From contig PUDQ02000032.1 of the NCBI GenBank assembly GCA_002964805.2, positions 868,001-932,000 on the forward strand: a DNA stretch of 64,000 nucleotides, given 5' to 3'. Below, in pieces: positions 20,773 to 59,082 of the stretch (the first letter of the stretch is position 1; the number at the start of each line of letters is the position of its first letter). Source of the DNA: Trametes villosa (Eukaryota > Basidiomycota > Agaricomycetes > Polyporales > Polyporaceae). The position numbers and the translations under genes were made by a program. The notes under the pieces are model-generated. The model ran no database searches. It was given only the letters and a program-made list of their open reading frames with translations, and was not told the DNA's origin.

Positions 20773-20781
20773 TCGGAGTAG

Positions 20782-20833
20782 ACGCTGTTTGTATGTCTTT
20801 ACCAAAGGCTTCTGAATCTAACATATACAAATA
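20782..20833 (+). repeat. F-box 3' hairpin element, copy after paralogue 1
   Basis: Core CAAAGGCTTCTGAATCTAAC is flanked by TTTGTATGT and ACATATACAAA arms, starting about 10 bp beyond the stop codon, so it is in the 3' UTR or at the terminator. Confidence 0.7.
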
Positions 20834-20902
20834 AAGAACTCATGCGCGCTCTGCTACTGTACTACAACTGGCTTCATCGTGCGCACATCTAGCGTCACTG
20901 GC

Positions 20903-22896: not shown

Positions 22897-23313
22897 GTGG
22901 GCCTACTTCCTAAGCTACGGATAGTACGCTATATTTGTTCACCCTGTCTTCATCGAATCCTCGGCTAACTTGACGATCTGGGGCCGCCGCAGCCGAGAAC
23001 TCGAGGCGCCACGGTTCCACCTCCAGACAGGTTGAGCGTATCGGACTCCGCGGTGCTGAAGATTCAGGAGACACGGCTTGGATGTTAGCCTCGCCCACTA
23101 AGTATTATGTACATCAACTGTTTAGATCATGGAGGGGCGGAGAGAAGTCGGGGTTCTGTGTTTCTGGGATAAGACGTAAGTGAGCTCGTGGCTTCCTACT
23201 ACGTGTGTTGTCGGGATTGAAGATCCGCACGCAGATGTTCAACACGTTGACACGGCGTGTATGGCAGTGAATCGATCAAAACATCGCGCGACTCACTGCT
23301 GAAGCCAACTATC
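22897..23313. other. Intergenic spacer, no gene seen
   Basis: 3' flank of F-box paralogue 2 and promoter of paralogue 3. Short ORFs have no family features. Confidence 0.5.
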
Positions 23314-25436: not shown

Positions 25437-28412
25437 TCATAGGAACGCTTGCGCCTGCAACATCCATAGACGAGCGTACTCCCCTTGTCGCTTCAGCAGC
25501 TCCTCGTGCGTCCCCGCTTCAACGATGACAGAATCGTTCATATACCTGCATATCGTACCCAATGGTCAGACACTACTTTGTGAGGGCGTGAATGCGGGAC
25601 TTACAGTATGAGATCCGCATGTCGCGTGAGGTTCCCAAAGCGGTGGGACGAGAAGACCATCGTCTTGTTCCCTCGTAGCTCGCGCAGCCGCGCGAAGAGA
25701 TCTTGTGTACTAAAGTCAGTGCGGCCATTGGAGAGACTATGAGGCCTCTACATACCGTGCTCTGCTGTCGGGTCGAGCGAGGCACTCGGCTCGTCGAACA
25801 GAAGCAGCCCGACCTTCGCGTCCTCCGACACCACGGACCGCATAAACGTCCTCGACCTACGTCTCCCCGTCAGCCCCACCACTCCCTCTGAACCGAGATA
25901 TATGCACTCACACCGCTAGCCTCTGCATCTGCCCGCCACTGAGCGCCGGCCCGCTGCGCGCAGCCATGCCGCCCGCGCCGCGCACGCTCGAGTAGTCGAT
26001 GTTCCGCCCGAAGAGCGCGGTCGTGCCCTCGGGGATGCCGGAGAAGTAGTCGCGCACGGGCCGCTCGAGGTACGTGTCGAACGCCTCGGGCAGGCGGCCG
26101 ACGAACTCGGCCGCGCCGCCGAGCTCCGCCGCGCGCCGCACGCGGGCGTCGTCCCGGAAGTGGGCGGGGTCGCCGAGCGCGATGTTGTCGCGAATCTGTG
26201 GGGGTGTTAGTAGGGCGCGGGAGAGGAGGAAACAAGGGACTGACGGAAAGGGGGAAGTGCGTGTAGTCCTGGAAGAGGACCGAGATGGCTTGGCGGAGGT
26301 CGAAGAGCCTGAGCGTGCGGATGTCGTGTCCGTCGAGTAGAATCTCCCCCTCCTCCACGTCGTAGAGGCGCGCTACGAGCTTCAAGATCGTGCTCTTCCC
26401 AGACCCGTTTGCACCAACGATGACCTGCACGAAGGTGAGCGCGAGGGCACTACACGCATCGAGGGACACCTACGCAAAGTTGTCCAGCGGCCAGCTTGAA
26501 CGACACATCGCGCAGCGCATACTGCTCCGACCCCGGATACCTAAACGACACATTCCTATCCCCACCGCATCAGCACACCCCCTTCCTCACACTCTCCACG
26601 CCCTCCTCAATAATCACTCACCGGAACTCGAGCGCGACGCCATGCCGGATCTTCTGCGCGTCCTCGGGGAACGGCACGCGCCCATCCGGGATACGGTTCG
26701 GAATGTGCGCGACGTCGTACAGGCGGCGGACCGTCGCGAGCTGCTCGGTGACGGACCCGGTCTGCTCGAAGAAGCGCCACAGCGTGTACGAGAACTGGGA
26801 CGTCGTTTGTTGGAGGAGGTTCAGCGACGCGAGCGAGACGGGCATCGAGGCCGGGTATTGCACTGCGCGGAGGGTGAACACGATCTGTTGGAACGAACGT
26901 GATAATTATGAGTGTATGCGCATGTACGGGGCTGGGGAGGGCGAGTGAGGGCGGCGCACCTGGGGAAGCTCGCGCAGGGGGTCCTGCACGAAGGTAAGGA
27001 AGCCGAAGCGCTGGCGGCCGCGCGAAATGCGTCGCATCTCCATGAAATCTACTGCGTTGTCTGGCCCGACGCGCTGCGAGATCTCCTTGAACTCTGCAGA
27101 GTACTGACTATCAGAGAAGTTAAGCGGAACACGAGAGAATTCCGCCGCACCTGACGTCATGAATTCGGAAAGGTTGCCCGCGATGAGCTCTTTGCGATGC
27201 TCTGTATTGTTAACGACATGTTTTAGGCCAACCATGCGAATATAGTCCTTGTCCTTGGTCGTGGCGGCCCATACTAAATAAGAGTGTCAGCATGAGAGAT
27301 CTGCTGGAAAACGTGGTAACAACCTTGCCCGTTCGCGAGCACCGTCCAACGCGTAACCCAGTCGCTCAACGACGCAGAGAAGCTCAGAATAGCGAGCAAC
27401 ACCCCATCCTGCTGCGCCCCAAGTACCTGCGCCAGCACCGACACCTGCGACACGACCTGTATCGCGGTCGACACGATGCCCGACGCCATGACGAGCGTGT
27501 CCCACGCGATGCTGCCCGAGGTCGACGACGCCTCCTCGAGCTGGCGCTGGACCATCGGGTCCTCGAACGTCGGCAGGTCGAGGCGCGCGCGCGCGTGGAA
27601 GAGGTGGAGCGAGTACTGCTGCTTGAGCCGCCGCGAGAGCGGCCCGCGCAGCTCCTGGAGCGCGTGGTTGAGCAGGCGGCGGCCGAGCGTGCAGGCGATG
27701 CGGCCGAGGCAGATGCGGAAGAGCTGGTCGCGGTCGACTGTGCGCGATTCTATTGCTGTTTGTAGCTGCGAAATGTTAAGTTAGATAGTTTGTCAGGTTG
27801 GTAGGGGACCGTTTCGTGGCCTCGCTCTTGCACGACGTGCGGGTGGGACGCGTTGTTCAAGTGGTAGGGCTCATCTGCTGTCGAGTTTGGCTCAAACGCA
27901 TAACTGACACCGAGCCCTCCGTTCAAAAGCTCATTTATGCGCCCATCGAACCAGAACCACCGGGGGTATTCACCCGCAGTGGGGGCCTCACTGAATATAC
28001 GCTTGACACTGAACTGTGAACTTACTATATTGATTAGTTGTCCGGAATACCTAACGGAGGGCTCAGCACGCGTCTTCAGCATACCAATAGATTAACATTT
28101 GTACCATAATGTCGCAGCAGGAATCAAAGAGTGCAGAAAGTCTGCCGCGAGGTACGCGACAAGGAGGAACCAGCAACTCCGGATGGATAGGATGTCCCGG
28201 AGCATGCGCAGCAAGTAGGGTAGACACGCGTACGCCTCGAGGTACTTCTCCAGCCAACTCGAGCCTGGTATATGCTCGAAGTCCGGGTTCTGCTCCTCGT
28301 AGAGGTCCCAGACGCCGATGCGAGTGTGCTTGACGCGGCGGGTGTCATCCGGGTTGAACGTGCCTTTCCGTTTGCTGCGAGCCTGTCCCCAGCGTTTTCC
28401 CGAGCGAGCCAT
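25437..28412 (-). CDS. ABC transporter A (half-size, membrane domain plus ATPase)
   Basis: Twelve exons: 28412-28105, 28050-28026, 27765-27324, 27273-27151, 27093-26960, 26884-26622, 26555-26474, 26424-26245, 26195-25912, 25856-25756, 25701-25605 and 25545-25437. The product is 715 residues, the same length and splice phases as transporter C. The N-terminal half has hydrophobic segments ([42 protein letters not shown]). The ATPase half has Walker A GANGSGKS (about 463), signature ALSGGQMQR (about 605), Walker B GLLLFDEP (about 632) and the H-loop SSHRFG. It is an exporter-type subunit expected to dimerise. Substrate and membrane are unknown. The N-terminus is short and basic. Confidence 0.85.
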
Positions 28413-37991: not shown

Positions 37992-38192
37992 GGTGGTTCG
38001 GGCAGCGAACGATGCCAATGACTCAGGATTAGTGTTTGTGATCATCGATTAGCTTCCATAGATGTCGCATAGGCGTGTGAAACTAGGCTAAGCATTTACT
38101 GCGGTACCTGCGCGTGAAAGCGTTGTTAGCACCGGGGAGCTAGATACTGCCCTCGCAGACGTACGCAAGCAAAAGCCAGGGACTCACATGTT

Positions 38193-40096: not shown

Positions 40097-40349
40097 TTGC
40101 GTACTACTATGTTCTCAAATCTAGGGAAAGTGTATGAATGCACATCAGCATATGATGGTAATTGTGTACTATGCGACGATCCAAGTTGCATCATGCACGA
40201 AAGGGAACATGCAAGCCGAACGTACCGGGTTCCAGTATTCTTAACTCGCGTGCACTTGAGCCTCTGCAGCGACGAGGAGTATCCTTGTGATGAATCGAGG
40301 CTGTTGAATCCACAGAACCTTTGTGTCACGGAGATTTTGCGAGGAGGCG

Positions 40350-40405
40350 GAGCTACTATTTGTACATGTTAGATCCAGAGGCCTTTGCCAAACATACGCA
40401 AGCAA
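40350..40405 (-). repeat. F-box 3' hairpin element, copy after paralogue 6
   Basis: On the minus strand it reads CAAAGGCCTCTGGATCTAAC between arms TTGCGTATG and ACATGTACAAA. It starts about 95 bp beyond the paralogue 6 stop codon, in the same orientation relative to the gene as the copy after paralogue 1. Confidence 0.7.
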
Positions 40406-40500
40406 CGCCAGCAAAATCCCAGCTGATCCTAGCGGCAATGTCCTTGATTGGCCTGACGCAGTACTCGGTACATCGACGGGTTATTTTACGACTAGAACGT

Positions 40501-42518
40501 TCAGTCCCATGGTATAGAATACTCCGGCATCTCGGCGACAGGCGACAAACCCCAATACTCCTCGACCCCATCCACATTCCACATATCTCTCATCTTGAAC
40601 GGGCATAGCACAGACTCGCTATCCTGCACCAACTTTACGTGCGCAACGTGGGCGTTGAAATCTGCAATGGTGCTCGCAAAGGCGTCCAACAGTTTCGAAT
40701 GGCATTCGGGACCGTCGTCACAACGCGGCTGTATCGCGAGGCACTGCAGCGGCTTTCCCGCCTCCGCGCGAGCCTCCGCCATCCGCAATGCGTAGCCTTT
40801 GCTCAGCGATGGTGCGCCCGGTGCGCAGAAGTCCTTGAATATCTCGCTCGGCAGGTCTATTGCAAGGCCTTCCAGTTTCGGGCAGCAGAGCGCCCCACCC
40901 GCCGAGTCCGCGAGGGCGCGGTACAGCCGGCTGAGCAAGGCTCAGCACGGCTGCCACTCGCAGAGCTGGGCGGTGCCTGGTTGGATGCGCACGGCGAGCT
41001 CCACGAGATCGGGCAGCTGGGGTAGCAGCGCGGGGAGGATCGTCGCGTCCAGCACGGAGATGTGCAGCGTCTTGATGGAGGCGAGGGGCAGCATCTCGTG
41101 CAGCCTGGTAATCCACGGCGACCAGAAATTTTCCGTGTGATCGTCAGGGTCCCCCTTCATGGTGTCCGCCCTTACCCAGAGCCCCGACCGCGGGCCCTGC
41201 GCTACGACGTGGAGCGCATGCGCGTCTGCGAACACCTCCAGGTGGTTGAAGCTCGCGACAAAGCTCTGCGAAGGCAGCGCGCGAGGCAAGTGGCCTTCCT
41301 CCGAGTTCGGATCGTAGTGGAGTAACCCATCCAGACGCACAAGGACATCCTCGGGAAGCTCCAGTAGCTCGAGCAACCGAAGCGAGGCGGCCAAGTCGCT
41401 GTTGAGGCATGTAAGGGAGCGGAGCGACGTGAGGGCGATCGGCGTGTCGACAGCCCAGGTGTTCACCGAATCAGGGTATAAGTCGGACAGATGCAGGTGC
41501 CTCAAAACCGGGGTAGCTGATAAGATGGAGGTCAGGTAATGGATGGCGTCCTCGTTGTGTGTGCGTTCGTGGAAGGGGGAGAGATAGAGGTGCGTGAGGT
41601 GGGGGAATGTATCGCCTGGAATGGCCGTACAGATCGGCTGAAGCGCGAGGGCTTTCAGCAAACAGACGCCGTGGACATTATTGATAGCCTCGTGCTGGTA
41701 GTCCCAGAGCCGATCGCAGTCAGACGAGACCGTTAGGCAGTCGAGGTTGGGCAGAAGATCGGTCGGAGGGCAGTGCTCTCGGATCACTCTATGCTGTTCC
41801 ACGTAATCGAGCCTCCGAACACGGTGGCCGTGTTTCTCCAGCAGCTGTTCCACGCGCGCGGTAGGGCGGACAGGTAGATGTAGAGTCAGAGGCATCGAGG
41901 CCGAGCGTTCCAAATACGCTTCCAGCCGCTCGACGTTGCGATTGTCGACGTGCGTCCAGAGAGTGGGCGTCTTGAGGGCGATGGCGCGCCACCGCCTCGA
42001 CACACTGGTGAGAGCGTGGACCTGGCGCAGAGATGGGATGCGCTCGACAGCTTTCCAGCAGCTCCAGAAGGTGCGGTCGTCAGATGCCTGGACGACGAAC
42101 TCGAAGATGTAGCGGAAGATCTCTGGCGGGAGCCTGTCGATCGATGCGAGCGCGTTGAAGCGGTGTCGGACGTCTGCAAGCACTAGCGTAAGGGCGGCGT
42201 TCGAGTGTGCCAGCTACGAGGGGCATAGTACTTGAGCACAAGTGTGTCAGAAGGAGTAGAATAATAGACGTACATCGTCGCGTCTATGAAGTTCGTCAGC
42301 ATAGAGTAGTCAAACACAAGATATGGTATCATACCTCTGACTCAGCTCATCCCGCTGTAGAGCCTCTGGCAGTAGCGCGAGCAGTTCGCGAAAAGAAGGT
42401 TCTTCTGCGGGCGTCGTCACCGTACTGCGAGGTACTACCTGCTCGAACGGAACTCTGGGTCAGTGCTGTACTCCGGAGTAGTCGCCGTCTTGGTATACTA
42501 AGCACGTACCTGACCCAT
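40501..42518 (-). pseudogene. F-box/LRR-like paralogue 6 with an in-frame TGA
   Basis: Exons 42518-42510 (9 nt, MGQ), 42438-42335, micro-exon 42283-42274 (RRDD junction) and 42213-40501 form one frame of 612 codons interrupted only by a TGA at 40944-40942. At that position paralogues 1 and 5 have Trp in a CW(A/L)L context, so a single TGG-to-TGA change explains it. Downstream the frame continues through ALADSAGGALCCPKLEGL to MWNVDGVEEYWGLSP. F-box LPPEIFRYIFEFVVQ and LTSVSRRWRAIALKTPTLW are intact. It may be a young pseudogene, a truncated 450-residue protein, or a read-through or edited transcript. Paralogue 7 has the same 9-nt first exon. Confidence 0.75.
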
Positions 42519-43130
42519 CGGCTACTATCTTGGGGGCAAAATGATGGAGAATATGGGGCGGTGGTGGTGGATATGTCGTCGAGACGTCAGGCGTGAGGAT
42601 GGGGCGTTATAAGCAACAGAGCGGGCTCCATCTTATAGGATGCGGCGGGATCAGCCCTGCAGTCTCAACGCAAGGATATTTGGTATCGAATGTACGCGGC
42701 ACAATGTGAGATGTGGCGTGGTGACGACTCCCTAGAAAACGGAGAGTTCAATCAAGGCGAAGATCCTTTAGCACGCCGAGCGTTCCTCGATGGTCAAAGA
42801 ACTCACAAGTTCCGCTTACAACTGTCCCCACCCGACGCTCACTCCGCTCGCAAACGGGAATAAAAGAACACATTGTAAGTAGCCTCGATTAGAGGCTTGA
42901 AAGTTGAAAGCAGCCTCATGAATCGACGTGGCCCTGCTACTATTTGTGCGTGTTATATTCAGAGGCCTTTGCCAAGCACGCGCATACAACTTTGCTATGA
43001 AAATATATCCGTGGTACAGTGTAAACCCGCCAAGCTGTAGTCAAGGATGGTGTAATACAAAACGATACATATCCAACGATCAGTTCCACGGGAGCAGATA
43101 TCGCGGCCTCTCGGCGGACGACAGCTCCCA
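42519..43130. other. Intergenic region carrying the 3' hairpin of F-box paralogue 7
   Basis: Promoter of paralogue 6 and 3' flank of the paralogue 7 back part. Apart from the hairpin element at 42938-42993, no gene or repeat was seen. Confidence 0.5.
42938..42993 (-). repeat. F-box 3' hairpin element, copy after paralogue 7 back part
   Basis: Minus-strand core CAAAGGCCTCTGAATATAAC between arms TTGTATGCGCGTG and CACGCACAAAT, about 140 bp beyond the (premature) stop of the paralogue 7 back part. Confidence 0.7.
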
Positions 43131-44540
43131 TTACTCCTCCGCTCCGTCCACATTCCACATATCCCTCATCTTGAAACTTGAGCGCAGCGCAGGGTCGTCG
43201 TTTCCCGCCACCTCGACGTGTGCGACGTGCTCCTCGAGCACAGCGAGAGTACTCGCGAATGTGTCCAAAGTCTCCGGATTGTGTTCGAGGGCACCGGCGT
43301 CACAACGCAGTTGCAGCGCTAGGCGACGTAGCGGCTTTCCTGCCTCCGCGCGAGCCTTCGCCATCCGCAACGCGTGGCCGCTGCTCGCCGAGGGCGTGTC
43401 AGGTAGGACCAAGCCCTCGTAGATCTCGTTCGGGAGGTCCATCATCGCGAGGGACTGCAGTTCTGGGCAACAAAGAGCCCCGCCAACCGAGTCCGCAAGT
43501 GCGTGACAGAGCCCTTGGAGCACCCCCGCGCACAGCTCTACAGAGGTTTGCGGGAGATCCTGTTGGAAGCGCACGATGAGCTCGACAAGACCGGGAAGTC
43601 GGGGCAATAGCTCGGGCAGGATTGCGGCGTCAAGGCTAGAGATGTGTAGCGTCTTGACGGAGGTAAGGGGCAACATCTCATGCAGCGCACAAACCCACGC
43701 TGACCAGAATGGTGCGCGGGCGCGGGCGTGGTCCTCGTAGGTGAACGGTACAGTATCCGCCTGTATCCAGAGCCCGGAACGTGGGCCTTCGGCCACTACG
43801 TGGAGCGTACGCATGCCCGTGACCACCTCCAAGTGTGTGAAGCTCGCGACGAAGCGTTGCGAAGGCAGGGGGCGAGGGAGATGTCCTTCCCTTTGAGGTT
43901 CCTCACCCTCATACCATTGACGGAGGTCATCCAGGCGTACCAGGACGTCTTCGGGAAGCTCGAGCAGCTCTAGCAACCGAAGCGCAGCGGCCATGTCGCT
44001 GCTCAGGCACGTGAGGGAGCGAAGCGATGGGAGGGCAATTGGCGTCACGGTAGAGGCAGCCCATGTGTTGACTGAATCAGGGTATAACCCCGAGAAATGC
44101 AGATGTTGTAGGACCGGGGTGATCGAGAGGAGCGATGTCATGTAGTACATCGCATCGTCGATTATTGCGCGTTCGTGGAAGCGCGAGAGGTAGAGATGTG
44201 TGAGGTGCGGGAAAGACGTGCCGGGGATAAGCACGCAGAGAGGCTGGAGCGCGAGCATGCCGATAGTGCGTGTGGCGTCGTGCTCTTCGTTTTCCACCCG
44301 GTCACAGTCTGAAGCGACCGCCGTGAGGCAGTCGAGTTTGGGCAAAAACCTGTCCGGAACGCAGTCTCCATCAGATGTGAGTTGCTCCACAAAGTCGAGC
44401 CTCCGAACGCGGTGGCCGGCGTGTTTCTTGAGCAACTGCAGCGTGCGCGCGGTGAGCGGGGCGGGCAGATGCAGAGTCACCGTCATCGAGCCTGAGCGGT
44501 CCAGATACGCTTCCAGACGCTCGTCGCTGCGATTGTCGGC
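43131..44540 (-). pseudogene. F-box paralogue 7, back part (cut at its 5' side by the inversion)
   Basis: Open frame from the breakpoint at 44540, beginning ADNRSDERLEAYLDRSGSM, to a TAA at 43133-43131. It lacks the F-box, which lies at 56218-56804 on the plus strand. Leucine-rich segments are well kept (FPHLTHLYLSRF, LPSLRSLTCLSSDMAAALRLLELLEL). The TAA replaces the Tyr of the family signature: MWNVDGAEE is followed by TAA and then TGG, where paralogues read EEYW. About 16 C-terminal residues are therefore lost as well. The part upstream in this orientation belongs to ABC transporter B. Most similar to paralogue 6. Confidence 0.85.
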
Positions 44541-44541
44541 T
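44540..44541. other. Left breakpoint of the 12.26-kb inversion
   Basis: Left of this point lies minus-strand F-box coding sequence (...GATTGTCGG); right of it lies plus-strand ABC transporter coding sequence (CTTAGCGGAGGGCAG = LSGGQ). The two halves join with no filler sequence. One base (C/G) is ambiguous. Confidence 0.85.
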
Positions 44542-45702
44542 TAGCGGAGGGCAGATGCAGAAGCTCGCGGTGTGAGTGTTTCTTTGCTCTATCCTATCTC
44601 TTTCTAGGCGACGAAGTGCATCGGCTGAGTCAATGTATCTATGCAGAGCCCGGACGTTCATGCGCTCCATAGTAGCAGACGAGCCGAAGGTTGGCATGCT
44701 GCTCTTCGACGAGCCCAGCGCTGCACTCGACCCCTTGGCCGAACACGGTGAGCTTTGAGATCGCCTACAAGTACTACTCCTGCCATGCCATACTAACCGG
44801 CCTTCCCAGATTTGTTCAACCGCCTACAGGAACTGCGAGGCAACAAGACAATGATATTCTCCTAGTGACTTGCAAAGCCCGGCCTCAGGCCGTTAGGCCG
44901 CCAGGCCGAGCCCTAAGTAGGCCGGGCCGAGCCGGGCTTTGACAAGGGCTTACAACGGCCTCAAAGCCCGGCTCGAAGTGGCATGGGGCCGGGCCGAGCC
45001 GGCAGGCCGGGGCTTTGGCTGCTATGAAAGGTTTGCCTCCAAAACGCGCGTATTTGGGTGTCGGTCGGGTTTGAACTGAGTAAAACATGGTATGATAGTC
45101 AGATAGATGCAGTTTAAGCGTATATGTGTGCTAAAGTCACCTTTCGACCGCGTCTGCAGCGGCGGTAGGAGCGTCAGTAACAAGCGCCCGTTATCCGGCC
45201 GCGGTTGCGTGCCCCGATTTAAGCACAACGAACCGGTATTCTCGCCTTCAAACAGTTCGGGACACCCACAGGTAGCTCCATATTGGGTAAACTGATCCCA
45301 AACAGGTATTTTGAAGCGTGTAGCCATACCACCCAAAGCCCCGGCTTAAGCCGAGCCGGGCCCTAGCCGGGCTTGAGCCGTAACATAGGGCCCGGCTTGC
45401 AGGCAGCTCAGGCCGGAGCCCTTGTAAGCCGGGCCCGAGCCCCGTCTTTCAGGCCGAGCCGGGCCCTGCAAGTCACTATATTCTCCTCGCACCGGTTCGG
45501 CAGACTCATGCGCAAGGCGAATCTCATGATGTCAGTGTTTCCCGAGCACTGAGTCCCCGTTTTCAGAACTCGTTGCGCTAACCTGCTTGATAGACACATG
45601 AACGACACTGCCATTGTCGAGTCGGGCACTCATGAGGAGTTGCTGGAACGACGAGGCAAGTACGCCGAGGTATGGGCCCTTCAAGCAGAGGCATTCCTCT
45701 GA
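44541..45702 (+). pseudogene. ABC transporter B, back part (inverted, with transposon insertion)
   Basis: Begins mid-exon inside the ABC signature (LSGGQMQKLAV). Exons 44541-44571, 44647-44747, 44810-44862 plus 45479-45522 (split by the transposon) and then from 45594 follow exactly the splice pattern of transporters A and C. Walker B reads [15 protein letters not shown]. The H-loop SSHRFG is cut by a 616-bp element whose first three bases create an in-frame TAG. The end [19 protein letters not shown]...QAEAFL matches A and C. The Walker A and membrane parts are at 56805-59082 on the other strand. It cannot encode a transporter as it stands. Confidence 0.88.
44863..45478. mobile_element. 616-bp hAT-like non-autonomous element inserted in an ABC transporter exon
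   Basis: Terminal inverted repeats begin TAGTGACTTGCA at both ends (44863 inward and 45478 inward) and continue imperfectly for about 20 bp. It is flanked by the 8-bp target-site duplication TATTCTCC (44855-44862 and 45479-45486). Both subterminal regions are packed with GGCCGGGCC/GAGCCGGGC-type repeats, while the centre (45010-45340) is of ordinary composition. No transposase ORF. Removing it with one duplication copy restores the exon frame exactly. Confidence 0.93.
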
Positions 45703-45991
45703 CGAGGCTCTTGCGCATGAGATATGCGCAGGTTTGGCGCTGTCACGGACGCGACATCCGCTTGCCATGCATGATACGGAGAGGCACTGTATATATGCCA
45801 AGGAATTGGGGAGTGCGTCGCGATACATCACCTGGCACTACACTGAAAGCTCGATTTCGACTCGAATACTAGTATCCGTGTACATGAACACTTTGACCAT
45901 TCCCATTTTACCCTGCATCCCCTTGTCCGTATGTGCGGGAGCTCTATGTACAAACGATGCGCCTAATCGGTACAAGATTGCCCCGAAAGTG

Positions 45992-48800
45992 TCACAGGAA
46001 CGCCTGCGCCTGCAGCTTCCAAATGTTAGCGTATCCCCCATCCCGCTTGAGTAGCTCCTCGTGGGTTCCACTTTCGAGGATCACCGAGTCGTTCATATAC
46101 CTATCGACTCTATCAGCGCCGCAAAGCCCCACACGAAGACGAGACCCACAGAATCAAGTCCGCGTGGCGCGTCAGGTTCCCGAAGCGGTGCGACGAGAAC
46201 AGCATCGTCTTGTTTCCCCGGAGCTCGCGAAGGCGGTTGAAGAGGTCTGCGCCACCGCACAAGCGTCAGTACGATGGAGTCGAAGCCAGCAATGGGGCCG
46301 GGGGAGAATCGGGGAAGCCGAGAAACCCACTCACCGTGCTCCGCGACGGGGTCAAGTGACGCGCTAGGCTCATCGAAGAGCAACAGTCCCACCTTCGCGT
46401 CTTCCGGCACCACCGAGCGCATGAACGTCCGCGCCCTTTTCCAAAATCCTCGTCAGCCTGCGTACGTTCCGCGCCCCGTGGGCGTGCGCGCAGAGGTACT
46501 CACACTGCGAGCCGCTGCATCTGGCCGCCGCTGAGCGCGGACGCCTCGGACGTCTTCATGCCTGCGGCGCCACGCAAGACACCATAATCGACCTTGCGCC
46601 CAAAGAGCGTCGTAGTGCCCTCGGGCAGGCCGGAGTAGTAGTCGCGCACGGGGCGGTCAAGATATGTGTCGAACCCCTCTGGCAGCTTCTCGATGAATGC
46701 CTCTGCACCGCCGAGGCGCGCAGCGAGCCGCACGTGCGCGTCGTTTCCTGCCGCGGACGGGTCGCCGATGGCGATGTTGTCGCGGATCTACATAGGTGCG
46801 GGCAGTGTTCAGGGCGGAGAAGTGGAAAAGGGGGGCACGAGGGACGTACGGAGAGGGGGAAGTGCGTGTAGTCCTGGAAGAGGACTGATATGGCCTGGCG
46901 GAGATCGCGCAGGCGCAACGTGCGGATATCGTGTCCCCCGAGAAGGATCTGCCCCGCGTCGGGGTCGTGCAGGCGGACGATCAACTTCAGGATCGTGCTT
47001 TTCCCTGAGCCGTTCGCGCCGACGATCACCTGTATGCGGCGCGCGATGAGCACAGCCTCGAGGACAGGGCGCACGCACGTACGCAAAGCTGCCCGGGGAA
47101 TATCTTGAACGAGACATTCCGGAGCGCGTAGTTCTCGGCGCCGGGATACTTGAAATAAACGTTCCTGCACGCATATCAACGACGTTTAGACAATTGAATG
47201 CCGGGGCAGACGTGATGCTCACCTGAACTCGAGCTCCACTCCGGAGCGGATCTGGGCGGTGTCCTCGGGGAAGGGAACAGTCCCGTCCGCAACCTTGTTA
47301 GGGACGCTGGCGACCTCGTAGAGCTTGCGCACCTCGCCGAGCTGTGCAGCAAACGACTGTGTCGAGCTCATGAGCTCGAATATATTGAAGGCAAAGGTGT
47401 TTGTCGTCTCCTGCACCATCTGCAGCGAGGCGAGCGACACGGGCATGCTCGCGGGGTGCTGCACTGCTCGAAGGGTAAAGAATATCTGCATGTGCAGATG
47501 TCAGGCGCGGGCACAAGTATGTGCACAATCAAATACGCAACCTGTGGGAGTTCGCGAAGGGGGTATTGGATCAGTGCCCAGAGGCTGAACCGGTCTCTGA
47601 CACCACCGTGTAGTTGCCACTGCCTGAATGCGCTGTCGGCGTCGCCTATGCGCTGCGACGCGGTCTCGAACTCTATAACGCAAATTGTTAGCCAAGCCAA
47701 TCGACGCGGGTAGTAAACTATTGCGCACCGGACACTGCGTATTCGCCTAGGTTGCCTGCTACGATTTCCTTGCGATGCGCAACCTCTTTCACGGCGCGCA
47801 TCCAGCCCTGCAGCTTCAGGTAGTCCCTGTTCGTCGTAGTAGCTGCCCATACTGCATAAAAGAAGAATTTCAGTAAAATTTGCAGACATGGCCGTGAGAT
47901 ACGTTCGATGAGTACCTTGTGCGCGGCCTCCTAGCAAGCCGGCGCTCGAGAGCCACTGTATAGTCTGCGAGGACATCGTAAGCCCAGCAAGGAGGTATCC
48001 GTCCCTCTGGCCGCGTAGCGTCTGACCAAGCACGACGACCTGCGTAGTAGCCTGTGTTGCCGCCCTTGCGAAGCCGGATATCATCTCGATAGCGTTCCAG
48101 GCGACGGGCGACATGAACGTCGTGGTGGTCACGTCGTCCAGTTGCCGCTGCACCGACACGGTTTCGTACGTAGGCAGGTCGAGCCGCGCCCGCGCGCGGA
48201 AGATGTGCTCGTCGGACCACTGCCGAACGCGCCATATGAGGCTCGCGCGGGCGCGCGCACGAACGAACTCGACGAGGTGGGAGGCAATCGTGCAGGCGAT
48301 GCGACCGCCGCAGATGGCGAGGAGGTGGTCTTTGTCTACGGTGCGCGTATCGATCGCAACTTGCATCTGCGGTCCCAAGCGTGAGTACATGTTCCGGAAA
48401 TAGGAGAGTGGCTCGCACTATGTGTAGGAGCTGGCCTTGATACCTATTTGAGAAAACGGTGTTAGCAGCGAGTCTATATATGGGACAAGGACACTTGCCA
48501 AAGAGAAAGGGCGGGCATGAACGCCTTGACGATCTCGAGGGCGAAAAATATGACAAGCAGCACGGCGCAGTAAGGGATGCTAAACACATCCCTCACCATC
48601 CGCGCGACGTAGGGCGTGCATTTAACGACCTCCGCGTGTTGCTCGAGTATGGCCAGCCCTGGCAGACGCGATGTCGATCCTACCCTTTCTTCGTATACAT
48701 CCCATACGCCGCAGCGTGTATGCCTGACTCGCCGCGTGTCGTTGATGTCGAACGGCCCCTTCTGCGACGACGTCTTCGGATATCTGCCCCAGCGTCGCAT
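45992..48800 (-). CDS. ABC transporter C (half-size, membrane domain plus ATPase)
   Basis: Twelve exons: 48800-48499, 48443-48419, 48366-47916, 47851-47729, 47672-47542, 47485-47223, 47164-47083, 47029-46850, 46787-46504, 46435-46335, 46246-46150 and 46100-45992. The product is 715 residues, exactly as for transporter A. Walker A GANGSGKS, signature ALSGGQMQR, Walker B GLLLFDEP and H-loop SSHRFG are all intact. Membrane segments include [23 protein letters not shown] and [23 protein letters not shown]. Intron 1 (48498-48444) has a GC donor (GCAAGT) where A has GT. An ATG at 48836 would add 12 residues. It lies wholly inside the inverted block, so its orientation was plus before the inversion. 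Confidence 0.85.
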
Positions 48801-48897
48801 CGTGAGGGAAGAGGAGATGCAGAAACTTGCAGACACAGCGTCTTATATGTGTAAGAATCTGATTACGACCAGTGACCACCATCCCGCAGGAACCGAG

Positions 48898-49414
48898 TCA
48901 AGGTGGGCGCGTCTTGCGACTGATGGTCCACGAGACCACCGTACGGGACCGTGGGGTTGTCAGCGCTTCGATTGGCAGGATTTCCCACCAGCTCCCGGTT
49001 AAGCCCAGATTGCCGTAGGGAGATGTGCTGAGGAGCCCTGCGAGGGCGGACCTCGAGCCGGGGCCGGTGTAGCGCGCGGAGGGCTCGTCCGCGAACAAGC
49101 TATACTTGCTGAGCTGCTTGTAGAGCTCGCCCCTGCCCGCGAGTTCGAACATGAGGGGGACCCACTTCTCGTCGTGGAAGTAGCTGTGGAGGTGCGGGCC
49201 GTGCAGGTGCCGTATGTTCCGCTGTCCCTTGCTCATGAAAGGCTTGCCCGATACATGCGCTGGGTCCGTGTCGTCTTCGTGTGCCAGATATATTCCTGTG
49301 CAAATATACTACACTGGTGTTCTGTTGACATGAATCTTCAGCTTTCCTCTGCGATAGATGAAGTTAACTGTACTTACAAACTAGTGGAGGCGGTACGCGC
49401 GCTACGTCGAGTAT
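48898..49414 (-). CDS. Unrecognised protein, His/Trp-rich; gene model uncertain
   Basis: The best part is an open stretch from about 49297 to 48898: YLAHEDDTDPAHVSGKPF, then RNIRHLHGPHLHSYFHDEK, WVPLMFELAGRGELYKQLSK, YSLFADEPSARYTGPG and NLGLTGSWWEILPIEALTTP. This looks like a conserved globular segment, not a chance ORF. A possible first exon (MILDVARVPPPLV, 49414-49373) splices to it with a TGA at the junction, so either another start is used or the gene is damaged. I do not recognise the family; HLHGPHLHSYFH could bind metal, but that is a guess. It lies upstream of ABC transporter C on the same strand. Confidence 0.4.
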
Positions 49415-50506
49415 CATGGCAGTAAGTATGCTCGAGCTAGGGACACGCGAGCCCGAGAACCTAATTCGAAGAAGACGGTGGTTACTTCAGGGACATCTCA
49501 CTGGGATGTCGGATTGCAATAAGTGTCGCGAGGGGGCTATATGAGCGCGAAATCGGCGCCTTGTAACGTACGCACGGGAACGGGGAATCCGGACGTACCG
49601 CGAATTGCGATTCCAGTTCATCTCAACCATTCCGCGGTTCAATTTCTTGCCTGCAAGGACACCATGTCTAAGCAAGTTCGATGACATTCACCACGATGGG
49701 GATATCCGCTGTCTGACTGCCATTCGTTAATGAAAAAGGCCTGCGGAGGAGGGGCTGTCAGAAGTTACTAATCGACTTGCCGTAAGCGGCCTATGTAGCA
49801 TCGTCATCCTGGCACCAGGCACAGCAGGCTCTCGGACCTTCGAGTCGTCGCGGAATTCAAGAGCCTTGGACTGACATACGTGTCCGTACGTATGTCATTT
49901 CTGTAGCTCGTGGCCAGCCGTCTGCAAGCGTGGGCTGGTGGTGGGAGAACGCGCGGCCGCAAGCTAGGCCGGCCTCAGGCTGGCGACAGCAAACGCAAAT
50001 CGCCACCTGCAAAGGCCGTGGGTCCAGATTCTCCGGCCTCGCCGCCCGGCAGCGCCGGCCACCCGGCGGAGAAAGTGCCACTTTCGGCACTCCCCCGGCC
50101 GGGGGTGTCACCAGGGGGCGCCCGATTGGCTGGTTGAGTGTGGAGACCGGCGATACAGCAGTGGCTTCGGACAACTGACGTCATGTCTGCCTAGACCGCC
50201 GAGTGAAAGTGGGTGGGGAGGCCGAAGTAATACCTTTCTTTCCTGACCTTTTCACGTTGATTCCTTACCACCATCGTCCTCATCGTCGTCGACCTCTGCT
50301 CGCCGTCGCAGACGTCCTCCAAGCCCCCTCCGCTCTTCTCCCCATCGTTCACCACGACGTCAGGCACGGCCCCCGCCCCTTCCTCCGGCCATCCGGAGGA
50401 TGCCCTCGACAGCTTTGCCGCTGCAATCTCTGCCCGCTATGCTCAGCAAGCGACTCCCCTCATCTCCCTCAACAGCCCCTCGCTCTCCCCGCCTCAGCTG
50501 TCCCTG
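49415..50506. other. Upstream region of the phosphatase gene with palindromic GC-rich segment
   Basis: Contains a 9-bp-arm hairpin (GACATACGT/ACGTATGTC, 49873-49896), a perfect 14-bp palindrome CCCCCGGCCGGGGG (50092-50105) and GTGCC/GGCAC palindromes near 50075. From 50260 the phosphatase frame is open without an ATG, so an upstream coding exon ending near 50295 is possible. Confidence 0.45.
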
Positions 50507-53500
50507 ATGGCGCAGACGACGGCGGCAGCTTCCATGGCAGCACCTCCGAGCTTTATGCCGCCGCCCATCTCCTTCTCCAAGTCTCTTCCGACGGCTGCAT
50601 CTTCCTCCGGAGCCGCTTCCTCCGTCACCCTTCCTCCGAGCGCCTTCACCGCCCTTCCTCCCTCCGCACTCAAGTCCGTGCTGTCCGATCCCTCCGCCCT
50701 CATCCTCGATATCCGCCCTCACAATGCGTACATCCAAGCCCGGATACCTAACGCACTCTCGCTCTCGGTGCCTTCTACCCTCCTCAAGCGCCCTTTATTC
50801 TCTCTGTCTAAGCTGGCCGAGATGCTACCCACATCCTCTGCTCGGGACAAGTTCTCAAAGTGGCCGGAAGCGTCGCGCATTCTCGTATACGACGCGGACT
50901 CCGCAAGCATCCCTCAGCAGACCCAGGCCAGCAATTTGCTGGGGCTGATGCGCAAGTTCCGCGGTGAGGGCTTCCCACCGGAGAGAGAGATTGCATGGCT
51001 ACGCGGAGGATTCCACGCGGTTTGGAGGGATCACCCTGATCTTGTGAGCCAAGAGCCCACTCCGGAGGAAACGGAAGAAGACGAGGGACAAGCGGAGGCA
51101 GAGGCTATTGCACCGTTGGGCAAGACGACGTCCGCGCCCAATGCAACACGTGCTCTTCGCGCGAAGCAGCTGCCCATGGCCGCGTTCACGTCTACAACCA
51201 CTATCCCGTTGCGACCCAGGGTAAGTGCACCTCGTACAGGCAGCTTGTGTCTGCTGCTCACCAGAATCTCGATCAGGCGATGCCGCCCCCGACGTCCGTG
51301 CCCATGCAGATCGTGCCCCCCACTCCTGCGATGCCGCGAGAGGACCCGTTCGCCAAACTACCTGCTATCCCACCGACACCCGCATCGGAGACACTGCCAG
51401 CGTCATTGCCTGCTCAGCGACCAGCGGAGTTCTCCTTGCGGCTACCGTCTGGCTTCGGTCGCAAGACTGCAGGCGGAGCAGCTGGCTCAGTCCCCAGAGG
51501 TCCGCTGTACAGCATGCCTACGCTCTCGCCGCAGTATACGCATTCCGGAGCGTATAATCGTGGCTCAAGTTTCTCTGTTCCGGGACGCCAGGTAAGCATA
51601 GCAGGCTCGTCGGACATCATGAAAGTGCATTAGGAGGGCGGTGATCTCGGGGCGGCCTCGGATTGCCTCGAAGTGACCCTCGACACGCCTCGCATAACCC
51701 TTGTATCACCCGGTAGAGACCTCGGGATGGATCTCTTACGATTTACCACCACGAGGCCTCGCGAGGCATCTCGAGGATTTGTTTCGCCGCCCGAGGCGGT
51801 CCAGATGCATTTTTTATTTTCTCCGACATATCTGGCTAGTCTGCTCATCAATGAGACTGACGATATCTTCAGGTTGCGTTCAATCCTTTCTTCGACACAA
51901 TCCGGCAGAACATCGAACTCGGCACTCGCGATCCGAGCGGTTCGAACGGAGAGGGAATCCCGCTCAAGCTCCCCAGGCGAGTTCGCCGACGGGTTGGTGA
52001 GCTACCGTTCGAGTGGCTTCGTCAAATTGCGAGGAAGAGTCGACACTCCACCGATACCAGCAGCACGACCGAGGATAGCGACGACTCATCCGGTAGCGAT
52101 ATCGACACAACCGCGGAGCAGCCAAGGTCACGTATGGACACGGTGACGTCGACGGTCCAATCGGCTCCTCCTTCACATCCGCGCTTCGACGCAATGGCAC
52201 GGCGCTCGCCACCGAAGTCGCGGTCTTCGTCCCCGGTGCAGCCTATTCCCATCCCCAGATCGCGCACGCGGCCAGACCGGTCATCGTCCCCCTCCAGTCC
52301 GACGCCCTCGTCGCATTCACATTCGCCTTCGGACGCGGAAGAGCTCACGAAAGCACTGGAGGCGCAGTTCTACAACATCGAGCTGGGTGAGCAGAAGCGT
52401 TTGCTTGGTGTCATGGAGCGACATAGTATGGAGAGCGGGAAGGTTATCCAAGAGGGCGGTGGAGTGCGTGGAGTCCTGGGCACGGTCCCGCCGGGGAAGC
52501 CTGCCGAGGGCAAGCCGTCGGTCGGCGCCAGCGTGATCGCCCAGAGCGATGCTCAGGCGGCCGCGGCCGTCGGTGAGGAGGCTGTGGCGTCGTTCCCTTA
52601 CAGTATCACTGCAGGCCTGGAGAAGGGCGCGAAGAACAGGTGAGTTACGGACTCGTCTCATGCAATGTGCGCCGCGCTCTGACACGACTCTCTTCAGGTA
52701 CCGGAACATCTGGCCTTTCGAGCACGCGCGTGTGAGGTTGCGGAAGATCAAGCCCGATGACGACGACTACATGAACGCTAGCTTCGTGCAGCCGCTCGGG
52801 ACCACGAAACGCTACATCGCAACCCAGGGGCCGCTTCCGGCTACGTTCACCGACTTCTGGACGTGAGTAATCCGCTTACCTTGTCCATAGCCCTCCACTG
52901 ACGGCCTTTGTGCAGCCTGTGCTGGGAACAGAACGTGCACGTCATCGTGATGCTCACACGCGAGATCGAAGGCTCCTCGGTGAAGTGCGGCAAGTACTGG
53001 GAGCCCGGGACCTACGGGACTCTGCACTTGCGTTTGCTGGAGACGAACGACACCCCGGAGCGGGAGCAGCAGCGCCGCGACAGCGAGATCAACAGCGGCT
53101 TCTTCAGCGCACACCTCCAGCAGGCGAAGCCCGCGCCCGTGCGGAAGGACAAGAAGGGCAAGGGGACCGCCGATGATGCAGATGGCTCTTCCACCATCAA
53201 GCGTGTCTTCGAGCTTACCAACTCGGCCTACCCACTTGCACCACCGCGCACCGTGACGCAGTTCCAGTACCTGGAGTGGCCCGACCTCAACGTCCCCGAG
53301 AACCCTCGTGGCGTGCTCAACCTCATTCGCCAGGTCGAAGACGTGGTCGAGCAATCACGGTCCGCCGGGCAGAAGCAGTGGGGCGAAGGCCCGTTGCACC
53401 CAAAGCCGCGTGTCAAGAAGCCCAGCCCAGAGCGACCATCAGCCAAGCTCGGGAGCACGACCGTCGCCGGATCCGACTCCTCTGCGGACCTTGTCGACTC

Positions 53501-55328
53501 GCTGACGGGCGTGAACTTGCTGGCGAAGGAGCATGCCCCGGTCCTCCTGCACTGTTCTGCTGGTGTCGGGCGCACGGGAGGGTTCATCGCCGTGGATGCC
53601 GTGCTCGACGGTGTCCGGCGGGAGATGCGGAAGCGCAGGGAGGGCAAGGTCAAGGAGACGGCTACCGCGGAGGAGGCGTCGACGTACGGCCAGGGCCGCT
53701 CTGGCACGGCGGACAGCGGCTGGAGCTCGAGTCGTAGTCGCAGTCCGACTCAGAGCAGGAGTAACAGTCCAGCTGTGATCAACCGCTCGCCAGACCTCAT
53801 GGAGGTCGACTCGACACCAAGTCCGTTCGCGGGCAGCAAGGAGGCCTCGCAGCTGACGGCCCCGGTGGCCGCTGGCGATCGCCAGGTGCACGTCCCCGTG
53901 GCCGGCTTCGCTGACGCAGTGCCGATGGACGTCGACGAGCGCCAGGAAGGGCCGTCGAGCAGCGTTCAGCCCACACCTATCCCCTCGGGCTCCGGGCTGA
54001 GGCGTCCCACTATCCCCGCGCCGCTCATGCAAGCATCCCCCGCGCTCGTCGAAGAGGTCAAGCGCGCTACCCTGCGCGCGTGGCCGAGTATGCCCCTCGC
54101 GACGCCCTCGCCGTTGACTGCACCCACGATCGCGCCGCTGGACCAGGCGATGCAGCACCGCGGCGCGTCGAGCGTCCTATCCGGGAGTAGCTACGAGTCG
54201 ACCGTGCGCAGCGGGTCCGCCTCGGCGTCTAACTCGAACTCGCGGTCGCGGTCGTCTGTGAGCCCGCCGAGCCCCCCCTCCAGTCAGGCGGACAGCTCGA
54301 CAAGCGCGATGGTTGGCAAGACGGCGCGGCTCACGATGGCGAGCCCCCCGCCGCCGGTGAAGGAGGCGCTACCCCCATCCAGCAAGCTGCAGGGCGAGAG
54401 GGATTCTTTGGGTGCGCACACCGCTCAGACCCGGCCCTCCTCTCAGTCGCGACGGCTCAACTCGTGGAGGTCAGAAGTGCACTCTTCGGACCTCGCGCTG
54501 ATAGAAGAATCATCCGCGTCGGCGCCGGCTCCGTCGCAGGCACAGTTGCAGTCGGGGAAGCCGGCGCAGCCGCACTCGCAGCCACACTCACAGTCGCAGT
54601 CGAGCTCGAGCTCCACGTCGACGTCCGCGGTGACCACGCGGCCCGGGCCGCCGTCCCCTGACCTGAAGGAGCCGAGGCGGCTACACGTGGACGCGTCCCC
54701 GCCGCTGCTGTCGTCGTACGAGGACCCGATCCGGCGCGTGGTGGAGGACATGCGCGAGCAGCGGATGAGCCTGTGCCAGAGCCTCCGCCAATACGTGTTC
54801 GTGCACCGGGCGATCATCGAGGGCGCGCTCATGATCGTCGACGAGGAGAAGAAGCGCAAGGGGAGCGTCGAGGTCGCCGCAAGCAAGGCGCCGGTCGACG
54901 CGACGCGCCCGCGCAAGTCCTCGGTCCCCATCTTCCCCGTCGAGCCCGCGCAGAACCCGATGGCCCGCCAACGCGTGTCCTCTATCCCTAGCATCTCAGG
55001 CGAGCCCGCGACCGCGCGCCTCGGGTCGCCGTTCCTCCCGTCAGATGGCGAGCGCGAGGTGTCGCGTAAGCGCAGCTACCCCGAGTTCGTCGCGGGGAAC
55101 ACGATCGTCGAGGGCGTGGTCGCGCCCGCGAGCGGGCGACCGAAGCGCGTCGGGAGCCCGGCGGAGCTGACGAAGGAGGACGTCGACGCCCATGGCGGGG
55201 TGTTGCTCACGAAGCGGCCGAGCGTGAAGCGCCGGCAGCGGCCGAGCGACGTGGGCGGGCAGCGCCCGAAGTTCGATACCATCCTCAGCGGGACGGCGCC
55301 GCCGGACGCGGGCGCGGGCGCGCGGTAG
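50507..55328 (+). CDS. Pyp1/Ptp2-type protein tyrosine phosphatase with rhodanese-like domain
   Basis: Exons 50507-51220, 51265-51591, 51873-52639, 52698-52862 and 52916-55328 give 1461 residues from the first in-frame ATG. Residues about 50-180 form a CDC25/rhodanese-like domain (ALILDIRPHNAYIQARIPNA, WLRGGFHAVW), but the catalytic-cysteine position reads VYDAD, so it is presumably non-catalytic. The classical PTP domain follows: NIWPFEHARVRL, YIATQGPL, the WPD loop FQYLEWPDLNVPEN and the P-loop HCSAGVGRTGG (Cys about 871). The Q-loop helix SLCQSLRQYVFVHRA is at about 1279, after an unusually long Ser/Pro-rich insert. Family knowledge: such phosphatases inactivate stress MAP kinases. The start may lie further upstream. 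Confidence 0.88.
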
Positions 55329-56217
55329 TCGGTAGTCGGCGTTCTTCCTGCCCAGTGGTGTTCTTGGACATTTCTGTACGTACTTATCTCCTTGCCTCCC
55401 GTCGCCGTGTTTGGACGCGTTCTCAACGGAGGTTGTAGTCACTACTTGTACGTTAACGTCTCTTGCGATCGCATATTCTGTCTGTGTCCCGCGCATCTGT
55501 TCCATATGTACCCTTGCCCATCATTAATCATCGAATTCGCATCCACAGTGTATCCGTCCCCGTCAGCTTGTGTCTGTGCCATCGTCCCCATCATCCTCGC
55601 TCTCATCCTCGTCCCCGTTCACGCACTGCACTGTCACGCCCGCACCGCCAGCACACACACGGCCGCGCACGCCCATACTCGTATACCTCCTCCCCCTGCA
55701 CATATACATCTATGCACATGCACATGTAGCCAGGCGTTACGTAGACCACATCGCGCACGCCGCCCGCCTCCACTGTATCATACCGGCATATACATACTGC
55801 TTTCGAGCTTTCGATGAACGAGAAACGTGTTGTTCTGCAGCCGGCCTCGTGCGCGGAGTGAGCGAGCCTTGAGGCGGGTTGGTATAAAGGTGAGTTCTTT
55901 GGCACACTCGTGCTAAAGGACCCTTGGCTTTAATTGAATACTCCGTCCTACTTGTTAATGCATAGATTTCCAACTGAATACTCCGTCTTGTAGGGTCCCG
56001 CCACCGAGTCGAGCGTCACTCTGTGGCGCGTGTATCCGATGCCAAAGATCCTTGCTTCAAACATGCAGGGTTGGTGCGGCTGCGCCCTTATAACGGCGCC
56101 GCCTCTGTCGCTTGTGATGTCCTTCCCGCCAAGACCTAGCGTCTCGATAACATATCCGGTGTCTACTACTCCCCCCGCCGCACACTCTCTATCATACCAC
56201 CTCCGAGAAAGTTGAGA
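55329..56217. other. Intergenic region, no gene seen
   Basis: Phosphatase 3' UTR and promoter of the F-box paralogue 7 front part. A 14-bp direct repeat TGAATACTCCGTCY lies near 55936 and 55976. The Cys/Tyr-rich ORFs at 55463-55872 look like chance. Confidence 0.5.
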
Positions 56218-56804
56218 ATGGGCCAGGTACGTGCGCGCAGGATACAGACTGCAGTTTTCGCGGCTCCCTGTACATGACTGACTGAGGATTTCCTTCGAGC
56301 AGGGAGCTTCTCACGTTGTGGCGCCGTCACTCGAGGTGGAAGAGCTTTCTTTTCATGAGCTTATTGCGGTGTTGCCAGAGACCCTGCAGCGGGATAGGCA
56401 CTGCTATGTAGGGTACGTCAATGTATGTTGTGTGCCTATCAACACTCAGCGCTGACTCACGTCGTAGACGCGAGACAGTGCGTGGCGTGCTTTTCCACCT
56501 CTATCCGTTGTACTCACCCGAGAATGGTGGCGCTCCTAGCTGGCACGCTCCGACGCCACCCTCACGCAGATGCTCGTAGACATCCGCTCTCGCTTCAATG
56601 CGCTCGCCCCGATCGACAGGCTGCCGCCAGAGATCTTTCGTTACATCTTTGAGCTTGTCGTTCAGGCCGCCGAGGATCGCACCTTCAAGACCCGCGAGCA
56701 CGCTTTAGAGCGTGTCCCGACGTTGCGCCCAACCCGAACCCTGTCCCATGTGTCCAGCCGATGGCGCGCCATCGCACTCAAGACGCCTGCTCTCTGGACG
56801 CGGG
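56218..56804 (+). pseudogene. F-box paralogue 7, front part (inverted)
   Basis: Exons 56218-56226 (MGQ), 56303-56412, micro-exon 56468-56477 (GRET junction) and 56540-56804 carry the complete F-box: LPPEIFRYIFELVVQ and LSHVSSRWRAIALKTPALW. The frame then runs into antisense ABC transporter sequence at 56804 and stops within a few codons (TGA at 56825). The exon layout equals that of paralogue 6. Joined in thought to 44540-43131 on the other strand, it yields one continuous frame of 601 codons including the terminal stop. As it stands it could only make an F-box-only fragment of about 130 residues. Confidence 0.88.
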
Positions 56805-56805
56805 C
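56804..56805. other. Right breakpoint of the 12.26-kb inversion
   Basis: Plus-strand F-box coding sequence (...CTCTGGACGCGGG) meets minus-strand ABC coding sequence (GACTGCG read outward). No filler, no flanking inverted repeat at either breakpoint, and one base of ambiguity with the left breakpoint. Confidence 0.85.
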
Positions 56806-59082
56806 GCAGTCTTCTCCGACGCCTTGATTCCGGCGGCTTGCAACACAGCGTCATGATTCATCTCAGGCGCGAGAAATGCCCTAGGGACAGTCATAGGTCC
56901 CCCGTATCGCGTGCTGATCGGACTATTCAGGTATGTGTCGAAACCGTCCGGTAGCCTCTCCATGGCTTCTTCCATACCACTGAGGCGCGCAGCGAGCCGC
57001 ACGCGGTCATCAGCCCAGGCTCCTCGCGGATCGCCGAGTGCAATAGTATCCTGGATCTACGTGGAGAATTTCAGTAGTATGCGGCGGATATTCGGGAATC
57101 CACTTACGGATAGAGGGAAGTACGTATAGTCCTGGAAGAGCACGGAGATTGCCTGCCGAAGGTCGCTGAGTTTTAAGGTGCGTATGTCGAGGCCATTCAG
57201 CAGAATTCGTCCCTCCCCCGGGTCATACAACCTCACGATCAGCTTGAGTATCGTGCTCTTCCCAGAGCCGCTGGCTCCAACGATCACCTAGAGCATACTC
57301 TTTAGCAACCGCTCCCTCCCGATGGTACGTGACCGGCGAAGGACGGAGTGCGTACACAGAGCTGACCCGGTAGGACACAGAATGACACATGTTGCAAAGC
57401 GTAGTCTGCGGCTGCGGGGTACTTGAACGACACGTTCCTATGTCGTGGCGTATTGTTAGAACACCGCTTATAACGAGTAGAAGATGTCACCACGCACTTG
57501 AATTCAATCGTCAGCCCGGACCTGATCTGAGCCGTATCCTCTGGAAACGGTTTGGACCCATCGCAGACCACATTGGGGATGGCGGCAGCAGAGTACAAGG
57601 TCCCTACAGTACTGAGCCGGTGTGCCACCGATCGTGACATCAGCCACCACCGCCGCAGATCACCTGCGGTAGCTTTCGCCGTACTCTCGATGAGATGGGC
57701 GGACGCCAGCCCCACGGGCATGCTCGCTGGATGGATCACTGAGCGCAGAGTGAAAAGAATCTATGCGAACGACATGAGCTTCGGAGGGATTTACAAATGA
57801 TGTGCCACGCATCTGGGGCAGTTCAGTGAGGGGATACTGCAGGAGGTGCAGTAACCGTCCAAGGATAGGAGCGGGCGGACTCGTTTGCCATTCTGTGAGC
57901 GCACGGTCCCCATCTCCTGCTTCTCTGAAAGCGTTCTCGTAGGCTGTAGAACGATCTCTAAGGTACCTGAACCGCAATGGGATTGTGAGAACGTACTAGA
58001 CACTGCGTGCCCTTCCAGGTTGCCTGCGATAAGCTCCTTGCGATAAGTGGAGTCTTCGATGATATAATGCCATCCGCGCATCCGCAGATAGTTCGGGTCC
58101 CTTGTAGTGGCAAACCAAACTATGTAGAGAATTTGAGTGTCTGCTCAAGCATGGATCGATCGAATACTTACCAGCATGGCTTCCCCCGAGCATTCCTGAA
58201 GTTACGAGCCATGGTAGTATCGTCTGCGAAACGAGCGTGACACCGCCTAGCAACGTGCCATTGCCTTGACTACGCAAGACTTGCGCGAGCACCCAGATCT
58301 GGGTGCTGGCTCGTAAGCTCGACGTGACGAAGTCCAGCCGGACATGCAATGTGGTGTAAGGGACGGTATTGGTGAAATGTGGCCCCAGCGATATCTCTTG
58401 CAACTGCGCTTGCACCGACCCCGGTGCCAATGTGGGGAGATCCAGCCGTGCAAACGCGCGGAAGACGTGAGATGCATTCCACAGCCGAGTGCTTCGCCAT
58501 AAATCCTCCCGAACGCGGTCACCAACGAGACGAGCGAGAAAGCTCGCGATGGCGCAAGCAAGGCGGCCCACGCAAATGTGAACTAAGGCGTCCTTGTCGA
58601 CAGTACGTGTCTCGAGAACGGTTCGCATCTACTCGCCAAGTTCAGGTTAGTGTCGGTGGCGCCTTCCACGCTGCGAAGAGTTGTACGTACAATTTGCAGT
58701 AGTTGCCCGTGATACCTGTTGGACATATTAGCTGACACGCGTGATAATCGTGAGGCAACATGGGGGCGACACACACCACAATGTCAAGGCAGGGATCAGC
58801 GACATGGCGAGCTCGGCCGCACAGTATAATACAAAAAGTCTCGGGAAGCCAGAAATCGCAAAGACTTCTTGTGCCATACGCCAGACGTCAGGGAGAGATG
58901 CTAATATTTGCCCACCAATCCAACACGGCCGTCTTCAGCCGAACGTATGGCGACCACGTCGCCGATATGGGGGATTCTTCGTACATATCCCACACACCCC
59001 GACGCGTACGTCTGATACGCCCTGGAATGCGAGGTGTGCCGTTGACGGTCGGATACACTTCAGGCTCGTCCTGAACAGACAT
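56805..59082 (-). pseudogene. ABC transporter B, front part (left outside the inversion)
   Basis: Starts at 59082 and follows the splice pattern of transporters A and C through the Walker A exon ([14 protein letters not shown], about 57287-57108) and the next exon to GIKASEKTA at 56805, just before the ABC signature motif. Exon 1 has a 2-nt loss in a CT run (58891-58898). TGA then follows, while the other frame continues with PDVWRMAQEVFAI aligned to A and C. The N-terminus VYPTVNGTPRIPG...RRGVWDMYEES matches the family. The signature, Walker B and C-terminus are at 44541-45702. A third-family-member pseudogene with three independent lesions (frameshift, inversion, transposon). Confidence 0.86.

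Follow-up and report, generated by a model that had tools for sequence, protein, structure and literature searches.

Gene order in fungi is shuffled within conserved chromosomes, a pattern known as mesosynteny. The locus described here has in common with it an inversion inside one chromosome, whereas here the gene cuts can be placed at base resolution; we know of no such cuts in the description of mesosynteny. Among the basidiomycetes, inversions between MAT alleles were described in the Trichosporonales (PMC6730849). The common feature is an inversion in a basidiomycete, but those inversions involve mating-type regions, while no mating-type gene came to notice in reading the present locus. 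For inversions of Drosophila mojavensis, chromosome breakage followed by non-homologous end joining was given as the origin (PMC3355041). Break-and-rejoin without repeats is among the routes described there and genes at the cuts can be altered, which applies to the present locus as well; a difference is that both present cuts lie inside coding exons.

In the window, that is, the entire 64,000-nucleotide stretch of Trametes villosa DNA analysed here, a 12.26-kb segment (about 12.3 kb) has very probably undergone a single inversion that split two genes, one encoding an F-box protein and the other an ABC transporter (F-box D and ABC D, Table 1). The event is an ordinary small inversion, a known type of genome rearrangement, and gene-internal cuts would be expected in a gene-dense fungal region. 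The original prediction had four gene pieces meeting at 44540 and 56804, and both direct reading of the sequence and DNA self-comparison confirm it. At the left junction, the minus-strand back part of F-box D, beginning with ADNR, adjoins the plus-strand back part of ABC D (SGGQMQKLAV). At the right junction, the plus-strand front part of F-box D, ending with LWTR, adjoins the minus-strand front part of ABC D, ending with SEKTA. The frame of the F-box back part opens exactly at the junction, after a stop; the frame of the F-box front part stops at 56827, and that of the ABC front part at 56778. One flip of approximately 44540–56804 makes both genes collinear with their uncut relatives. The breakpoints overlap by two bases (GC at 44539–44540 and again at 56804–56805), not by the single ambiguous base claimed originally, and the three possible choices of the interval yield the same result. 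The inverted state is probably the derived one, as judged by the uncut paralogues and homologues rather than by the gene order in sister species.

Table 1. Features at and around the inverted segment (positions in the window).
Feature	Position	Strand	Remarks
ABC transporter A, uncut paralogue	25437..28412	-	12 exons, 715 aa
F-box paralogue B	40504..42213	-	uninterrupted at the breakpoint position; stop at 40942-40944
F-box D, back part, without the F-box	43134..44540	-	469 codons open; best relative paralogue B, then P0001-P0008
Left breakpoint	44539..44541		2-base GC ambiguity
ABC D, rest of exon 9, signature SGGQ	44541..44571	+	31 nt
ABC D, exon 10	44647..44747	+	101 nt, equal in A and C
ABC D, exon 11	44810..45530	+	interrupted by the 616-bp element
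hAT-like element, 616 bp	44863..45478		ends TAGTGACTTGC (inverted); flanked on each side by the 8-bp repeat TATTCTCC
ABC D, exon 12	45594..45702	+	109 nt, equal in A and C
ABC transporter C	45992..48800	-	12 exons, 715 aa, open throughout, inside the inversion
Rhodanese ORF and protein-tyrosine phosphatase ORF	50261..55328	+	carried inside the inversion
F-box D, front part	56218..56803	+	short exons, apparently starting with MGQ, then F-box exon 56540-56803
Right breakpoint	56803..56805		2-base GC ambiguity
ABC D, front part, exons 1 to 9a	56805..59082	-	exon 9a = 56805-57056

The front part of F-box D (88 residues) and its back part (469 residues) were compared separately with 16 relatives, nine homologues and seven paralogues from the window, the stop in B being read as X. 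In all 16 relatives both parts are found in one chain. The gap between them at the cut is zero residues in 14 relatives and one residue in the other two. The front part matches the F-box family PF12937 (E = 7e-6, 26.1 bits with the cut-off of 24.3), whereas the back part alone matched no Pfam family. Paralogue B ranks first for both pieces, with 68% identity for the front and 61% for the back. The DNA self-comparison features the same picture: positions 40496–41947 of B match 43075–44538 on the same strand, and positions 41952–42750 match 56801–55975 in the inverted orientation. Thus homology to B switches strand at the cut, and it runs on into the upstream region. The short MGQ exon at the start of the front part is, by eye, apparently the same as in B and in P0002 of T. 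versicolor.

For the second gene, exon lengths were compared. The exon edges of the ABC genes were placed manually in a joint view of A, C and D, and the equal lengths partly follow from that choice. Exon 9 comprises 284 nt in A and 284 nt in C, while in D it consists of 252 nt on the right side, 31 nt on the left and one base assignable to either (252+1+31 = 284). Other exons of D equal to those of both A and C are 2, 4, 6, 7, 8, 10 and 12. Exon 11 is equal (97 nt) only after subtraction of the inserted element together with one 8-bp repeat, and two exons differ, exon 3 (457 nt compared to 451 and 442) and exon 5 (143 nt compared to 131 and 134). Exon 1 of D has no single open frame. Hence the expectation that the reunited genes have the exon structures of intact paralogues holds for ABC exons 2, 4, 6–10 and 12, and conditionally for exon 11, but not for exons 1, 3 and 5.

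The spacing at the ABC cut was assessed in 122 subjects, namely 120 listed homologues (out of 5232 matches), A and C. Both D pieces matched in 117 of them, A and C among these, and the remaining five had no match to the back piece. The gap, its position being extrapolated from the ends of local alignments, is exactly one residue, the leucine with the split codon, in 93 of the 117. The other 24 relatives deviate from this value: the gap is two residues in eight, zero in seven, and takes other values (from –21 to 5) in nine. The cut falls directly before the SGGQ signature, a motif that a pattern search located in 116 of the 120 listed homologues. Taken together, the F-box gaps, the sum for exon 9 and the ABC gaps bear out the prediction that the flip rejoins both genes; the 284 nt of exon 9 and the zero F-box gap in 14 of 16 relatives likewise agree with its claim that no base was lost or added.

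Both families are present in multiple copies in the window, several of them damaged, and one could imagine that there was no inversion and that the four pieces arose separately, as partial duplicates or through decay of genes, and lie so by chance. That would require two independent pairs to fit at the same two points and on opposite strands, which is extremely improbable, and this explanation was dropped on the joint fit of both pairs. We favour a single conservative inversion, which accounts for both broken genes at once with single-base precision and is in line with the comparisons made piece by piece.

A segment of 12.26 kb placed backwards by the assembler would produce the same picture. 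Misplaced inversions in assemblies usually occur between inverted repeats, but the cuts have no inverted repeats above chance, the window contains no N, and the joins in the sequence were each found once in the assembly. An assembly error is thus very unlikely. A different case is a true but heterozygous inversion, present in one nucleus of a putative dikaryon with the uninverted order in the other, which would be a variant of the inversion reading and not its competitor. The F-box back frame, still open over 469 codons, fits a young event. On the other hand, a search of the 46.7-Mb assembly (140 contigs) with 301 b of the left junction and 3 kb around the right junction produced no second haplotype, although a collapsed assembly would hide the second copy. 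We consider heterozygosity possible but rather doubtful. If it holds, the inversion might segregate between the two nuclei as a young polymorphism. In this scenario, which we offer tentatively, one event would inactivate two members of gene families in just one of the nuclei and would locally impede recombination within the array of rapidly changing F-box and ABC genes.

Returning to the inversion as such, we consider how it could have arisen. Between the surroundings of the two cuts, the longest inverted match is 7 b within 50 b, 9 b within 200 b and 10 b within 500 b; the control medians (up to 60 random pairs) are 6, 9 and 10 b, respectively. Hence there is no inverted match above chance between the cuts within 200 and 500 b, and within 50 b the values are 7 and a median of 6. 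In the 1000-b surroundings the longest inverted match is 11 b, a value obtained without a control. Two cuts placed at random in the window share at least two bases in 17% of cases. No inverted duplication, the mark of a staggered break, is seen at the cuts, where exon 9 sums to 284 nt; in this the locus differs from the staggered-break cases of D. mojavensis, which leave inverted duplications at the cuts (PMC3355041).

These data bear on the possibility that the inversion resulted from recombination between inverted copies or was driven by the hAT-like element close by. In favour of these routes, the window is rich in inverted paralogues of both families, and 322 b separate the left cut from the start of the element. 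However, no inverted match above chance joins the cuts, the cuts are outside the element ends, and the search for these ends (at most one mismatch) yielded the two ends of this copy, with none near the right cut. The inverted matches, being at the chance level, led us to drop a repeat-mediated origin; a transposon-end origin was dropped in view of the 322-b distance on the left and the lack of any end close to the right cut in the search. Overall, either route is highly improbable.

Since there is no repeat above chance, no transposon end was found at the cuts, and the two-base overlap is within chance, two-break joining is the best fit, and two double-strand breaks followed by end joining are the likeliest mechanism. 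The original prediction had already noted that no inverted repeats flank the breakpoints and had preferred two-break joining to recombination between repeats; both statements stand. In the order of events that we infer, double-strand breaks would have occurred in an exon of the F-box gene and in exon 9 of the ABC gene. The released segment would have contained ABC C, the phosphatase gene, the F-box front part and the ABC back part. End joining would have reinserted it in the reversed orientation without loss or gain, with at most the two-base GC overlap. While the four pieces fit to the base, this order itself is a reconstruction. Both cut genes would presumably have become non-functional halves, and their loss may have been tolerated as each belongs to a local multi-copy family.

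The element in exon 11 of ABC D, with its terminal inverted repeats, 8-bp target repeat and dispersed copies, looks like a hAT-like non-autonomous element. Non-autonomous hAT elements have an 8-bp target repeat, TAGTG-type inverted ends and several copies, and the exon-11 element shares all three features. Elsewhere the genome has 13 additional matches, among them cases in which two matches belong to a single copy; relatives lie on other contigs. The ends yielded nine genomic matches, two being those of the exon-11 copy, and the reversed control none (at most one mismatch). With one mismatch allowed, three other copies among 11 loci have both ends. Two of these three (1512 b and 359 b) have identical 8-bp flanks, which are absent in the 510-b copy. 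Under stricter end matching no other copy has both ends.

Apart from the cut, ABC D carries three lesions, namely the hAT-like element, a splice donor that reads AT after exon 5, and a frame break in exon 1 between 58995 and 58880, where the 94 nt between two conserved blocks are not a multiple of three. The changes by codon position are 101/81/134 on the D branch and 47/38/78 for C, and ABC D has a more relaxed pattern of change than C. Given the other lesions and the relaxed change, ABC D may have been dying before the cut.

The F-box gene shows a different state. In its back part there is a single stop codon, TAA, roughly 18 codons short of where the gene should end. The changes by codon position relative to the outgroup F19 are 47/46/81 for D back and 55/34/64 for B; judging by these counts, which display no sharp decay after the cut, any relaxation of D back is mild. 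With 469 codons still open, the frame would fit a break of recent date compared with the duplication of B and D, suggesting that the inversion is younger than this duplication. Paralogue B, to which the cut gene is most closely related, is interrupted by an in-frame TGA in the middle of the gene (40942–40944), and hence may itself be a pseudogene. The original prediction referred to intact paralogues: B is indeed uncut at the breakpoint, but with this stop it is not intact.

This is a small inversion at base resolution in a basidiomycete, and it can be read from one genome alone since the paralogues supply the uncut state of both genes. It suggests that expanded gene families may make gene-cutting rearrangements tolerable. 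The inversion provides a clean marker for work on strains and sister species, and leaves the general view unchanged.

The ABC family is predicted to be an exporter of the HlyB/MsbA type, following the names given by the source to some of the homologues. ABC C matches PF00005 (89.8 bits with the cut-off of 25), and no Pfam membrane family at E of 0.001; the four ABC exon pieces alone had no Pfam match, and a PDB search with one ABC exon had none either. In ABC C, the intron after exon 1 is apparently of the GC-AG type (48497–48498), and A has GT at this position.

The ABC tree comprises 37 proteins, namely a subset of 34 from the 120 listed homologues together with A, C and the D front part. 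The D front part groups with P0132 of T. elegans and P0142 of T. maxima (709 and 724 aa), the fork having the support of 100/97. The branches of all three are long, that of the D front being the longest (1.01), and this placement is therefore unsure. Further, among the 120 listed homologues, A and C, the best BLAST match of the D front is P0130 of T. sanguinea, followed by C. T. elegans and T. maxima may encode ABC proteins of the D type in full length, but with the longest branch and a best match to P0130 rather than to P0132 or P0142, it is unsure whether D has an uncut orthologue.

The window proteins have their best matches in Trametes and other polypores, in line with a wood-decay polypore close to Trametes. 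Among the proteins of the tree, identity reaches 91% between ABC A and a protein of Cubamyces lactineus and 84% between ABC C and one of T. pubescens. The phosphatase ORF (808 aa) is 65% identical over 99% of its length to a Trametes pubescens phosphatase. As predicted, the phosphatase gene and ABC C were carried along, both being found inside the inverted interval. The rhodanese ORF precedes the tyrosine phosphatase ORF, and several homologues join both domains in one protein. Scans of the window with Rfam and for tRNAs produced no match.

Five Trametes pubescens proteins, F-box P0003 and P0004, phosphatase P0010, and ABC P0138 and P0157, are all listed with the longest contig of 121211 b. 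This suggests that the F-box, phosphatase and ABC genes are linked in this species and the neighbourhood is conserved, the listing giving neither order nor strand. The linkage of the phosphatase and ABC genes seems to be old. By eye, phosphatase and ABC homologues with matching contig sizes are seen in at least ten Agaricomycetes species.

Besides F-box D, the region has seven F-box copies, distributed over the two strands; its ABC transporter genes number three (A, C and D). The F-box copies on the left (19051–25243) are on the plus strand, and those on the right (36096–44540) on the minus strand. This layout resembles an older inverted duplication of the array. One example of an inverted match within the array is that of 23468–25186 to 37828–36156, at 67%.
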